Shown: piece by piece, positions 14,508 through 21,267 of the stretch | Layout: each line of letters begins with the position of its first letter | How positions within the stretch are numbered: position 1 is the stretch's first letter | Source: an uncultured Bacteroidales bacterium | Lineage (GTDB): Bacteria; Bacteroidota; Bacteroidia; Bacteroidales; Muribaculaceae | DNA: 35,001 nt | Assembly: GCA_902786725.1 (NCBI GenBank) | Contig: CADADP010000035.1 | Location: 1-35,001 of the forward strand | Direction: 5' to 3' | The notes under the pieces: generated by a model | Told to the model about the DNA's origin: nothing | The model's database searches: none | Seen by the model: the letters and a program-made list of their open reading frames with translations, nothing else | Translations under genes and position numbers: made by a program

Positions 14508-15391
14508 TCATCGCTCCACTTGTCCGCCCAGTATATCCAGTAGCTCGGTGGTAATGCCTTGCTGTCTCAACTTGTTATATTCCAAGTTAAGCGCATCCAG
14601 CAGTTCCTTAGCGTTATCGCTTGCGGTCTGCATAGCCATCACACGAGCAGCTTGTTCACTCGCTATGCTCTCGGTGAACACTTCTTGCACCACCGAACGC
14701 ACGTGTAGCGGCAACACCGAATTGAATATTGTAGTCGCATCGGGTTCAAACAGACACGGGGCGGTTGCCGACGAAGCATCGGCCGCTTCGAGCAGTTTAG
14801 AATATTCTACCGGCAGCAGTTGCTCTATCGCAAACGTCTGTCTGCTAGTGGATTTAAAGTGCATATAAGCCACGTCCACTCGGTCGAAGTCGCCTCTAAG
14901 GAAGCCATCCTTCAATTCTTGCGTGAGCCGCTGCACATCTTCTTGACTACTACGCGTGTGGATGTAACCGAGATTCAGCACGTTTACGCCATCAACACAC
15001 AATTTGTTAGCGGCTTTCTTAAGCTTCTTACCCACAGGAATAATTGTCACTTCCTCAATATCCTTTTCGTGCTGACGGATATTGTTGATGTAAGATAGAA
15101 CTTGCTTAAAGATATTCAGATTGAACGCCCCGCACAAGCCGTCGTCAGAACCGAAAGCCACAAGCGCCACTCTCTTCACCTCGCGTTGCTCAATAAGCGA
15201 AGATGAGAATTCGGCTTCCGTCGCGAGCAAATGCCCAAGCACCGCACAATTTTCCTATAGGGCGACAAACGCTGCAACTGCCACGTAGCCTTACGCATTT
15301 TGGCAGATGAAATCATCTTCATGGCGCTTGTAGTCTTCCCGATAGAAGAAACGGAGCCTATTCTACTTTTTAGTTCTCGCAGTGTTGACAT
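14508..15391 (-). pseudogene. atpG: ATP synthase gamma subunit, split by a single-base frameshift
   Basis: Two overlapping frames together make a full gamma subunit. The first starts at 15391 and encodes the conserved N-terminal helix (MSTLRELKSRIGSVSSIGKT, then TSAMKMISSAKMRKA), losing similarity after about residue 48 and stopping at 15176. The second is open from 15242 to 14508 and continues with ALVAFGSDDGLCGAFNLNIFK and the C-terminal helix ending in RQQGITTELLDILGG. Adding one base within about 15237-15250 would join them as SPYRKIVR-VLGHLLATEAEF, in register with the family. I see no slippery heptamer, and the second frame has a stop just upstream, so programmed shifting is unlikely. 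The gamma subunit is the central rotor shaft, so a real lesion would uncouple the enzyme. A sequencing or assembly error, or a very recent mutation, is most likely. Confidence 0.85.
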
Positions 15392-15413
15392 ACAAAATTA
15401 TGATCTACCACTA

Positions 15414-16994
15414 TCACTTTTGTTCATACTTGTTGGCAATCTCCTCCGCGGCGGCACGCAACTTCGCGGTCACATCGTCGTCGATTTTTCCGGCGCGCAA
15501 AACATCCAGAACATCCTTCTGATGCTTGCCATGGAGATAATGAAGGAACAGTTTCTCAAATTCGGCGACCTTTTCCAGCGGCACCTTTTGCAACAGTCCG
15601 TTAACGCCGCAGTAGATTACGGCCACCTGCTCTTCCACAGCCATAGGTTCGTATTGTGGCTGCACAAGCAGTCGCTCGTTCTTGCGACCGGTATCTATTG
15701 TTCGGGCTGTCACGGCATCGATGTCGCCACCAAACTTCGTGAACGCAGCAAGCTCGCGGTACTGAGCCTGAGCAATCTTCAGTGTTCCGGCCACCTTCTT
15801 CATACTCTTAATCTGAGCATTGCCACCTACACGCGACACCGATATACCCACGTTAACGGCCGGACGAATTCCGTTATTGAACAACGAAGTTTCCAAATAG
15901 ATCTGACCGTCGGTAATCGAAATCACATTCGTTGGTATATATGCCGACACATCGCCTGCTTGAGTCTCGATAATGGGCAGTGCGGTAAGAGAACCGCCAC
16001 CTTTCACCATGGGTTTCAGCACCTCCGGCAGGTCGTTCATCACACTCGCCACAGCTTGGTTATCGTTGATCTTGGCTGCGCGTTCCAGCAAGCGGCTGTG
16101 CAGGTAGAAGATATCGCCTGGATATGCCTCGCGTCCCGACGGGCGCTTAAGAATAAGCGATATCTCACGATAAGCCACAGCGTGTTTTGAAAGGTCGTCG
16201 TAGATTACCAGTGCATCACGACCGGTGTCACGGAAATACTCGCCTATCGCGGCACCGGCAAACGGCGCATAATAGCGCATCGATGCCGAGTCGGCGGCGT
16301 TGGCTGCAACCACAATAGTATAGGGCAACGCACCGCTTTCTCTAAGTTTGTTCACAAGGCCTGCCACTGTTGACGCTTTCTGACCGATAGCTACATATAT
16401 GCAGTACACCGGTTTACCGGCCTCGTAATTAGCTTTCTGATTTATTATCGTATCTACGGCGATGGCGGTTTTTCCAATCTGACGGTCGCCAATAATAAGC
16501 TCACGCTGTCCACGGCCGATGGGAATCATCGAGTCGATGGCTTTAAGACCTGTCTGAAGCGGCTGATTCACCGGCTGACGGAAGATAACGCCCGGGGCCT
16601 TTCGCTCAAGTGGCAGCCTGATACGCTTGCCCTCAATCGGGCCATTGCCGTCGATAGGTTCGGCCAGCACGTTCACAACACGTCCCAGCAAGCCCTCACC
16701 CACCTCAATAGAGGCGATTTCACGTGTGCGTTCCACCAGCATGTTCTCCGATATCGAGTCCACCTCATTGAGCAGGATCACACCCACGTCGTTCTCTTCA
16801 AGGTTCATGGCAACTCCGGTAACGCCGTTTTCAAAACGCACCAGTTCGTTGGCTTCTACATGGTCCAAACCATAAACATGGGCCACACCGTCGCCAACCT
16901 CAAGCACTTTGCCCGACTCTTCGAATCGAATCGATTCCTTAGCTTTGCCAAGTTGCTGAGCTATAATTTCTGATATTTCACTTGGGTTTATCAT
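15414..16994 (-). CDS. atpA: F1Fo ATP synthase subunit alpha
   Basis: This 526-residue subunit has the Walker A motif GDRQIGKT at 169-176, the conserved Q-loop region [25 protein letters not shown] (about 141-165), and the C-terminal signature [11 protein letters not shown] containing the arginine finger that completes the catalytic site of beta. It forms the alpha3beta3 head with non-catalytic nucleotide sites. The length is slightly above the usual 500-515. It lies 12 bases after atpH and 22 bases before atpG. Confidence 0.98.
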
Positions 16995-17006
16995 CTAACT
17001 TCTTAA

Positions 17007-19481: not shown

Positions 19482-19490
19482 TGCCCTTAG

Positions 19491-19724
19491 TTAATATATA
19501 CAAACCGAGATCACGTTATCCTTTATATCGGCCACTCCGCCAAGTATCTCACGCGACGACGCTTCCGCACCCTGCACATACGACAATGTCCCTTGCTTTA
19601 AGGCGGCTATTAGCGCCGCATGATTTTTCAGCACTTGAAACGACCCCAAAGCTCCGGGCAAAGTCACCATATCCACTTCGCCTTCAAACTCAATCATTTC
19701 TGCCGATATTATTCTTAGTGTCAT
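19491..19724 (-). CDS. atpC: F1Fo ATP synthase subunit epsilon, short form
   Basis: At 77 residues it contains only the N-terminal beta-sandwich (MTLRIISAEMIEFEGEVDMVTLPGALGSFQVLKNHAALIAAL). The C-terminal helical hairpin that inhibits ATP hydrolysis in many bacteria is absent; the family is usually 130-140 residues, and short forms are common in Bacteroidota. There is therefore no epsilon-based ratchet inhibition here. It lies 37 bases after atpD, in the conserved beta-epsilon order. Confidence 0.95.
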   Translation of the reverse strand: MTLRIISAEMIEFEGEVDMVTLPGALGSFQVLKNHAALIAALKQGTLSYVQGAEASSREILGGVADIKDNVISVCIY

Positions 19725-19761
19725 CGTGAAAAATAATCTTTAGGTTTTCTCAATCACTTAA

Positions 19762-21267
19762 TTAGCCCTCAACCTGCGCAAGTAGTTTTTTACCCTTAGC
19801 GATAGCCTCATCAATGGTACCTACATTGAGGAATGCCTGCTCTGGATATTGATCCACCTCGCCGTCAAGAATCATCTTGAAGCCTCGTATGGTCTCGTTA
19901 AGAGGCACCATAACACCCGGTACGCCGGTAAACTGCTCGGCCACAAAGAACGGCTGCGACAAGAAGCGTTGCGCACGGCGCGCACGCGACACCACCAGCT
20001 TATCTTCATCGCTCAGCTCATCCACACCGAGGATAGCTATAATATCTTGCAATTCATTATACTTCTGCAATAAGTGTATCACACGCTGAGCCACGTCGTA
20101 GTGCTCCTCACCCACGACATGCGGGTCCATAATGCGTGACGTGGAAGCAAGTGGGTCCACAGCCGGATAAATTCCCAACTCGGCAATCTTTCGGCTAAGA
20201 ACGCAGGTAGCATCCAGGAAGTTGAACGTAGTGGCTGGAGCAGGGTCGGTTAAGTCATCGGCAGGCACATACACAGCCTGAACCGACGTGATACTGCCGC
20301 TCTTGGTAGAAGTGATGCGCTCTTGCAGTTTTCCCATCTCACTGGCAAGCGTGGGCTGGTAACCCACAGCCGAAGGCATACGACCGAGCAATGCCGACAC
20401 CTCGCTACCAGCCTGAGTGAAACGGAAAATGTTATCCATGAACAAGAGGATGTCTTTTCCGCCACCATTCTGATCGCGGAATTGCTCGGCAACCGTCAGT
20501 CCCGACAGGGCCACACGCAAACGCGCACCCGGTGGTTCGTTCATCTGTCCGAACACAAGGGTGGCTTGGGAATTTTCCACCTCAGCCATATCCACGTCTT
20601 CCAGACGCCACTCGCCCTTGGCCATTCCTTCCTTGAACTTGTCGCCATACTTGATAACGCCACTTTCTATCATTTCGCGAAGCAAGTCGTTACCCTCGCG
20701 TGTGCGCTCTCCTACTCCGGTAAACACCGAGAATCCGTTATGACCATGCGCTATGTTGTGAATAAGCTCCATGATAAGCACAGTCTTTCCTACACCGGCG
20801 CCACCAAACAGACCTATCTTACCACCTTTCGAGAAAGGCTCAATCAAGTCTATCACCTTAATACCGGTGTAAAGTATTTCGCTTGTAATCGATAGGTCGG
20901 CAAAAGCTGGAGCCGGCTGATGAATCGCACGCTTATCACCACCCTTGAGCGGAGTCAAGTGGTCGATAGGCTCGCCTATCACATTCAGCAGGCGGCCTTT
21001 AACTTGCTCGCCCGTGGGAACAGAAATGGGACGTCCCAGATTCTTCACTTTAGTGCCCCGTTGCAATCCGTCGGTACTATCCATAGCCACACAGCGCACG
21101 GTATTCTCACCCACGTGCTGCTCCACTTCCAGTATCAGGTCGGATGTACCCTGACGCGGCACTGACAATGCGGTGTAGATGGGCGGGCGAGCCACGCCAT
21201 CGCCTTCAAATGCGATGTCCACTACAGGACCTATAACCTGTGTTATTTTTCCAAAACTTTCTGCCAT
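19762..21267 (-). CDS. atpD: F1Fo ATP synthase subunit beta (catalytic)
   Basis: The 501-residue catalytic subunit has the P-loop GGAGVGKT at 155-162, the catalytic Glu187 in GERTREGND, the DELSEED-like region as DELSDEDK, and the signature [11 protein letters not shown]. The length is slightly above the usual 460-480. It is the first ATP synthase gene of the block and follows nuoH by 44 bases. No TAnnTTTG element is visible in that gap, which supports read-through from nuo. Confidence 0.98.

Follow-up and report, generated by a model that had tools for sequence, protein, structure and literature searches.

How does a complete ATP synthase operon come to lie inside the operon for respiratory complex I, and do the two enzymes then share one message? 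The question is raised by the stretch of DNA analysed here (the window), 35,001 nucleotides (nt) of contig CADADP010000035.1 from an uncultured Bacteroidales bacterium of the family Muribaculaceae (assembly GCA_902786725.1), whose minus strand reads nuoA-B-CD-H, atpD-C-B-E-F-H-A-G, nuoI-J-K-L-M-N. Judging from the sequence comparisons below, it is probable that an atp operon of the Odoribacter/Butyricimonas type was inserted a single time, that it replaced the former synthase, and that it is transcribed mainly from a nuoA promoter shared with complex I.

The atp block between nuoH and nuoI

The gene row was confirmed from the open reading frame (ORF) coordinates and NCBIfam matches: no other gene intervenes, and the atp block falls exactly between nuoH and nuoI, as an earlier note on this DNA had described. 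The gap lengths given there also hold, since both boundary gaps (nuoH-atpD and atpG-nuoI) are 44 nt and the widest gap of the 18-gene row is 58 nt (nuoB-nuoCD). A single strand, short gaps and the absence of any gene between, by which operons are recognised, thus characterise the whole nuo/atp row. The synthase operon had been called complete, and all eight F-type subunits (a, b, c, alpha, beta, gamma, delta, epsilon) are indeed encoded in the window; gamma, however, is frame-broken, so that atpG is not one open frame in the assembly. Each of nuoA, B, CD, H, I, J, K, L, M and N is a full frame, although the family matches of nuoA, nuoI and nuoJ fall below the curated cut-offs of NCBIfam. That the arrangement is far above chance is confirmed by its recurrence in seven families. 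The features are as follows.

25237..25268, minus strand: predicted promoter-like site 5' of nuoA, Bacteroidota type; TTTG at 25268-25265, 20 nt, then TAAGCTTG at 25244-25237; 9 of 10 consensus positions
24794..25162, minus strand: nuoA; NCBIfam NuoA models, best 6.7e-30, under cut-off
24126..24824, minus strand: nuoB; NF011391, 2.1e-105, over cut-off
22421..24067, minus strand: nuoCD fusion in one frame; NuoD PRK06075, 1.6e-125, over cut-off; NuoC TIGR01961, 4.7e-32, under cut-off
21312..22388, minus strand: nuoH; NF004743, 1.5e-98, under cut-off; NF004741, 1.2e-92, over cut-off
21268..21311, minus strand: nuoH-atpD junction, 44 nt, A/T-rich, with no Bacteroidota-type promoter or terminator-like site
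19762..21267, minus strand: atpD (beta); TIGR01039, 5.8e-231
19491..19724, minus strand: atpC (epsilon), short form of 77 amino acids (aa); TIGR01216, 4e-14, under cut-off
18405..19481, minus strand: atpB (a); TIGR01131, 9.6e-33
18109..18366, minus strand: atpE (c); TIGR01260, 2.9e-17; probably proton type, from its site residues
17555..18052, minus strand: atpF (b); TIGR01144, 2.9e-24
17007..17558, minus strand: atpH (delta); TIGR01145, 2.5e-32
15414..16994, minus strand: atpA (alpha); TIGR00962, 3.2e-219
14508..15391, minus strand: atpG (gamma); TIGR01146, 7.8e-12 and 3.9e-53 on its two pieces
14464..14507, minus strand: atpG-nuoI junction, 44 nt, no hairpin in the window
13822..14463, minus strand: nuoI; TIGR01971, 6e-28, under cut-off
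13292..13807, minus strand: nuoJ; NF005168, 4e-22, under cut-off
12958..13269, minus strand: nuoK; NF004322, 8.8e-28; NF004320, 6.8e-24, over cut-off
10984..12951, minus strand: nuoL; PRK06590, 9e-175, over cut-off
9432..10955, minus strand: nuoM; TIGR01972, 2.1e-123, over cut-off
7931..9394, minus strand: nuoN; TIGR01770, 8.4e-110, over cut-off

Extent of the nested order

Within the family sample of Muribaculaceae (f1), 149 genomes were searched, with NuoH found in 147, AtpB in 145 and both in 144. We equate f1 with Muribaculaceae since the AtpB place of its member G266 coincides with that in the genome of locus L095, named Muribaculaceae bacterium Isolate-002. The two genes lie on one contig and strand, 1784-2767 nt apart, in 132 of the 144. 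The remaining 12 have them on different contigs, of which 11 run from nuoH into atpD before ending; in the twelfth (G308) the contig ends inside nuoH. Furthermore, atpG-nuoI-J-K was seen in G254, which gave no NuoH match, and nuoH-atpD in G300, while the contigs of G260 and G290 break off at nuoH or within it and G356 has neither gene. Hence at least one nesting junction is present in 145 of the 149 genomes, four are uninformative (G308, G260, G290 and G356) and none is contrary; all 30 genera sampled include a nested member. The apparent exceptions were dismissed, as contig ends explain the split genes and none contradicts nesting.

One AtpB match per genome was obtained in 135 of the 145 Muribaculaceae genomes and two in 10. 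Each of the five second matches listed adjoins the first, as pieces of one gene. The ten genomes with a match in two pieces comprise eight of genus g185 plus G224 and G363; their open frames of 429-542 aa point to an insertion within AtpB.

A sample of 218 Bacteroidales genomes was employed for the order as a whole, with complex I-type nuoH, defined by a NuoH match above 350 bits, in 82. Of these, 67 fall among the 147 genomes with a place for AtpB, among the matches listed: 14 are nested, three carry the two genes at separate places of one contig, and in 50 the genes fall on different contigs, one of the latter (G190) being nested according to locus L027 of the same genome. The 15 nested genomes of this sample span seven families, namely Muribaculaceae and six others, Coprobacter and Barnesiella among them, and both junctions are present in all 13 regions fetched as nested, from seven families. 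Such a mapping of the junctions across Bacteroidales had been proposed in the earlier note.

A scan of named loci, using a 12-row NuoH alignment led by Coprobacter and keeping the best 80 of 518 relatives, gave 37 nested loci, 30 showing both junctions and seven cut by a contig end. They carry the names Coprobacter secundus, Barnesiella, Candidatus (Ca.) Gallibacteroides, Ca. Caccoplasma, Ca. Amulumruptor, Ca. Limisoma and Muribaculaceae, although some bin titles look misnamed. One bin titled Bacteroides sp. (L082) shares its NuoH place with G292 of the window's family, and its title is apparently wrong. The Muribaculaceae, order-sample and named-locus sets overlap in a few genomes. In the other 43 of these best 80 of 518, nuoH is followed directly by nuoI (Bacteroides, Phocaeicola, Butyricimonas, Odoribacter, Alistipes and others); PMC7002350 gives the nuo operon of B. 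fragilis 638R as a range of ten tags. Two separate operons, which the note had taken to be usual in Bacteroidota, are thus the rule outside the clade in Bacteroidales. Outside the order, none of 61 genomes, hand-picked among the matches listed (345 genomes in all), is nested; 21 of the 61 carry both genes on one contig, the nearest pair being 19 kb apart.

One clade in three trees

Trees of rpoB, concatenated atp and concatenated nuo genes were built from 29 genomes, 12 of them nested and drawn from six of the seven families; family f88 was left out because G088 gave no rpoB match. The nested genomes form one clade in all three trees (support 100/99 each), which argues for one origin, and one insertion followed by vertical inheritance is the simplest reading. 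Somewhat weakening this, f88 is placed by 45-row quick trees only. In those, the atp genes give one nested clade (97) and the nuo genes need two changes, which we ascribe to rows with missing genes. A separate genome, G144, stood among the nested ones in the 45-row nuo tree, surrounded by rows that lack nuoM and nuoN (cut loci); this placing was rejected, as it does not recur in the 29-genome nuo tree, which was restricted to well-filled columns.

According to this scenario, an ancestor common to Muribaculaceae, Barnesiella, Coprobacter and four or more other lineages would have received a complete atp operon between its nuoH and nuoI, in one piece and on a single occasion. The older ATP synthase would have disappeared, presumably by replacement.

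Probable shared transcription of the nested row

Bacteroidota promoters follow the consensus TTTG, 18-22 nt, TAnnTTTG. We scanned for TTTG-N18-22-TAnnTTTG at 9 or more of 10 positions within 300 nt upstream of genes, and compared the counts with 20 shuffles. Among nested loci, such sites precede nuoA in 18 of 43 cases (shuffles 5.2, maximum 9), which is above chance, and lie at chance level before atpD (5/48; shuffles 4.9, maximum 7) and nuoI (1/41; shuffles 1.4, maximum 4). In the window, no site of 9 or more positions occurs within 300 nt upstream of atpD or nuoI; the earlier note, too, had seen no TAnnTTTG-type promoter in either gap. The gaps are also short across 50 nested loci, with medians of 44.5 nt (nuoH-atpD) and 73.5 nt (atpG-nuoI). 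Since promoter signal is lacking at atpD and nuoI and the gaps are short, the atp genes would most likely be transcribed mainly from the nuoA promoter, together with complex I, which would place a proton pump and a proton-driven synthase under shared control. Upstream of nuoA, a TonB-dependent receptor gene (25526-27763, plus strand) starts divergently.

It may instead be that the nesting exists in the DNA only, as three adjacent transcription units with their own promoters and terminators and no shared control. We hold this to be unlikely, although several observations favour it or weigh against a shared message. A promoter-like site was found 5' of nuoA in only 18 of the 43 nested loci, and the controls from separate genomes are weak (atpD 7/22, shuffles 3.1, maximum 7; nuoA 7/38, shuffles 3.2, maximum 5). 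One weak sigma-70-type match (9 of 12 positions) lies at each junction on the minus strand (21324-21295 and 14526-14497); these matches are at chance level, the scan giving 32 in total against 28.0 expected (standard deviation 4.8). Consensus scans are weak tools, and an internal promoter of other make-up would escape them.

Terminator-like hairpins also favour this alternative. We searched for a hairpin with a T-rich tail within 110 nt of gene ends, with a stem of at least 8 pairs (in a laxer scan, at least 6), again in comparison with shuffles. At the stricter setting, 8 of 50 nested loci have a hit after atpG (shuffles 0.1, maximum 1), 1 of 50 after nuoH (0.1, maximum 1), 4 of 50 after nuoI (0.6, maximum 2) and 10 of 23 after nuoN (0.2, maximum 1); the separate genomes gave 5/22 for atpG, 0/48 for nuoH and 14/41 for nuoN. 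The laxer setting added nested sites after nuoH (6/50; shuffles 0.2, maximum 1) and nuoJ (8/50; 1.9, maximum 4). Because sites also follow nuoH, nuoJ and nuoI, the scan is not specific to operon ends. Computed RNA folding energies are lower in the atpG-nuoI gap, with z below -2 in 10 of 50 loci, versus 3 of 50 for the nuoH-atpD gap.

The atpG hairpins are confined to a few groups: the Coprobacter group (2/2; L013 and L014), the f68 group (4/4; L011, L012, L028 and L045) and the Barnesiella/f109 group (2/5; L006 and L029 positive, L007, L031 and L032 negative). Within f68, L045 was assigned by the 45-row atp tree and L028 by a hairpin identical to that of L012. The window and 41 other nested loci, including the Muribaculaceae loci scanned, have no terminator-like hairpin with a stem of at least 8 after atpG, and a tool scan of the window's two junctions likewise gave no terminator. 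In L009 and L177 (the latter of the window's genus), strong hairpins without a T-rich tail follow atpG.

The statement in the earlier note that nesting forces one transcript is therefore only partly supported. No promoter signal above chance was found in either gap, which agrees with the note; the terminator-like hairpins that some loci carry after atpG speak against a forced single transcript. The persistence of the hairpin in Coprobacter, f68 and some Barnesiella-group genomes suggests that the atp block probably retained its own terminator at first. Where the hairpin persists, expression of nuoI-N would be lowered or segmented; in the window and the Muribaculaceae loci scanned, which have none, an uninterrupted 18-gene message from nuoA to nuoN would be expected.

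In the puf operon of Rhodobacter, intercistronic hairpins set unequal expression within one operon. Nested loci can resemble it in that a hairpin stands where two functional blocks of a single gene row meet; they differ in that the terminator-like form was predicted in 8 of 50 of them only.

The atpG-nuoI gaps of four loci of the window's genus (L173, L174, L175 and L178) are 112-144 nt long and contain stretches that look alike by eye. All four have a long-range inverted repeat around ATGCC/GGCAT, and three share a GCACA..CACCG piece; perhaps these stretches form a small structured RNA element.

Source of the inserted synthase

In the rpoB tree, five genomes of the Odoribacter/Butyricimonas group (below, the Odoribacter group) stand with Alistipes and family f9 (100/99), and the nested clade lies elsewhere. 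In the atp tree, these five form the sister group of the nested clade (100/100, on a stem of 0.39). Approximately unbiased (AU) tests reject each arrangement on the other's data: the Odoribacter group with Alistipes on the atp data (p-AU 6e-5), and the nested clade with the Odoribacter group on the rpoB data (p-AU 1e-5). Moreover, the nested clade still groups with the Odoribacter group when a site-mixture model is used, and also when the columns of AtpD or of AtpA, cut out at approximate positions, are analysed by themselves.

Gene content, an independent character, points in the same direction. Of the genomes examined, all five nested ones and all five of the Odoribacter group lack an ORF that 15 of the 17 others carry between atpC and atpB, with a length of 119-142 aa. 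The exceptions are f9, which lacks the ORF, and L128 (G413, a Prevotellaceae bin), with about 3.9 kb and several ORFs between atpC and atpB. The ORF measures 135-141 aa in L117, L118, L126 and L135; of these, L117 and L135 were scanned against Pfam, with no family over the cut-off. We call it atpI-like from its position and from PMC4154653, the excerpted text of which implies an atpI between atpC and atpB in B. fragilis.

Because the atp and rpoB trees conflict and the same ORF is missing from both groups, we read the pattern as lateral transfer: the inserted synthase looks foreign, and the whole atp operon appears to have moved between the stems of the two groups, the old one being lost. As to direction, an operon of the type now found in Odoribacter and Butyricimonas may have entered the nested ancestor. 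No second ATP synthase was seen in nested genomes in the Muribaculaceae AtpB searches. In G106, a member of the Odoribacter group (L017 and L018, contig C8), the atp and nuo operons point towards each other across about 11 kb, a possible stepping stone. This proximity is not repeated in Butyricimonas synergistica, in which some 67 kb separate atpB from nuoH and the two genes occupy opposite strands.

A vertical history would dispense with the transfer: the atp genes would have moved into nuo within their own lineage, and the grouping with Odoribacter would reflect unequal rates or the differential loss of two old synthases. Some observations lean this way or against a foreign source. The shared atp clade has a long stem, the trees do not fix the direction of transfer, and the AU test groups were defined after the trees were inspected. 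AtpA alone does not return the nested rows as a single clade (two changes). Family f9 is long-branched; the rpoB tree places it beside Alistipes, the atp and nuo trees beside Phocaeicola, and it also lacks the ORF. Against vertical descent are the AU rejections in both directions, the stability of the grouping under the site-mixture model and in both column blocks, the ORF missing from both groups and the single AtpB match of most Muribaculaceae genomes, with the second matches listed being pieces of one gene. On balance, we find the vertical account improbable and prefer the transfer of an Odoribacter/Butyricimonas-type operon.

Enzyme types and known relatives

No nuoE, nuoF or nuoG gene lies in the nuo/atp row, and a NuoF model gave no match in the window's genome (88% complete; NuoE and NuoG were not searched genome-wide). 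As no NuoF was found in the genome, complex I here is, on its gene content, the 11-subunit form without NuoEFG, as in Bacteroides fragilis. For the synthase, we take the sodium-site ligands of subunit c to be Gln, Ser and Tyr (Gln/Glu-Ser/Tyr). In an alignment with the sodium c-ring 1yce, these positions hold Ile, Glu-Gly and Ile; with no sodium site of this kind in subunit c, protons probably drive the synthase.

According to the excerpted text of PMC7002350, the nuo genes of B. fragilis 638R occupy the ten-tag range BF638R_0850-0841 and encode a complex I without NuoEFG; they are poorly expressed in rich medium, and their deletion causes no significant colonisation defect. Both systems thus lack EFG; Bacteroides loci run uninterrupted as nuoA-B-CD-H-I-J-K-L-M-N, whereas the window has eight atp genes between nuoH and nuoI. 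The atp order beta-epsilon-a-c-b-delta-alpha-gamma is described, in the part of PMC5709465 seen, as a minor complete unit of Bacteroidetes. The window shares its gene order with the Bacteroides/Prevotella-type operon, but differs from it in lying inside nuo and in lacking the ORF by which atpC and atpB are separated in Bacteroides. The Odoribacter/Butyricimonas operon is nearest in the atp trees and lacks the same ORF, but is apart from nuo.

Possible consequences of the nesting

Muribaculaceae, Barnesiella and Coprobacter are gut anaerobes. In the order sample, complex I is patchy elsewhere and kept throughout the nested families, with complex I-type nuoH in 15 of 15 genomes of the seven families versus 67 of 203 others; since the nested families are one clade and incomplete bins make up many of the genomes, this contrast is no independent test. 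We tentatively suggest, at somewhat less than even odds, that the placement of the sole synthase, of foreign type, within nuo locked both enzymes together, such that the nuoA promoter sets both levels and any loss of complex I would now endanger ATP synthesis.

The individual parts were known already, namely the atp gene order (PMC5709465, in part) and the EFG-less nuo operon (PMC7002350, likewise). A published description of the nesting, its single origin, its extent or the foreign synthase was not found in a search of PMC papers, which left out most subscription papers and all bioRxiv preprints. These four points appear to be new; the single origin and the foreign type of the block, as read from the sequences, also go beyond the earlier note.

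The locus offers a clean natural case of operon nesting, in which a whole-operon replacement of the ATP synthase would have landed inside a respiratory operon, and the nesting is retained in every informative genome of the clade examined. It makes testable whether complex I and ATP synthase are held to matching amounts by a shared message, and it allows the role of the EFG-less complex I to be asked where this enzyme is hard to switch off apart from the synthase. A practical caution is that nuo deletions in nested species may affect the ATP synthase through polarity.

Assembly quality and the atpG frame break

The window, with its broken atpG, belongs to a single contig of a metagenome bin that is 88% complete and has 73 contigs. 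An assembly chimera, to which this might point, has a negligible chance of explaining the gene order, because the same order occurs in Coprobacter secundus 177, Barnesiella sp. An22 and Muribaculaceae Isolate-002, whose records carry no bin label, and in the one-contig Muribaculaceae genome G307.

The break itself is a one-base frame change that splits atpG into pieces at 15391-15176 and 15242-14508. A second gamma-subunit gene was not found in the window's 88%-complete assembly. The frame from the start comprises 71 codons, versus 294-295 codons in nine of nine same-genus relatives, in all of which the gene is intact; the break is likely an assembly error.

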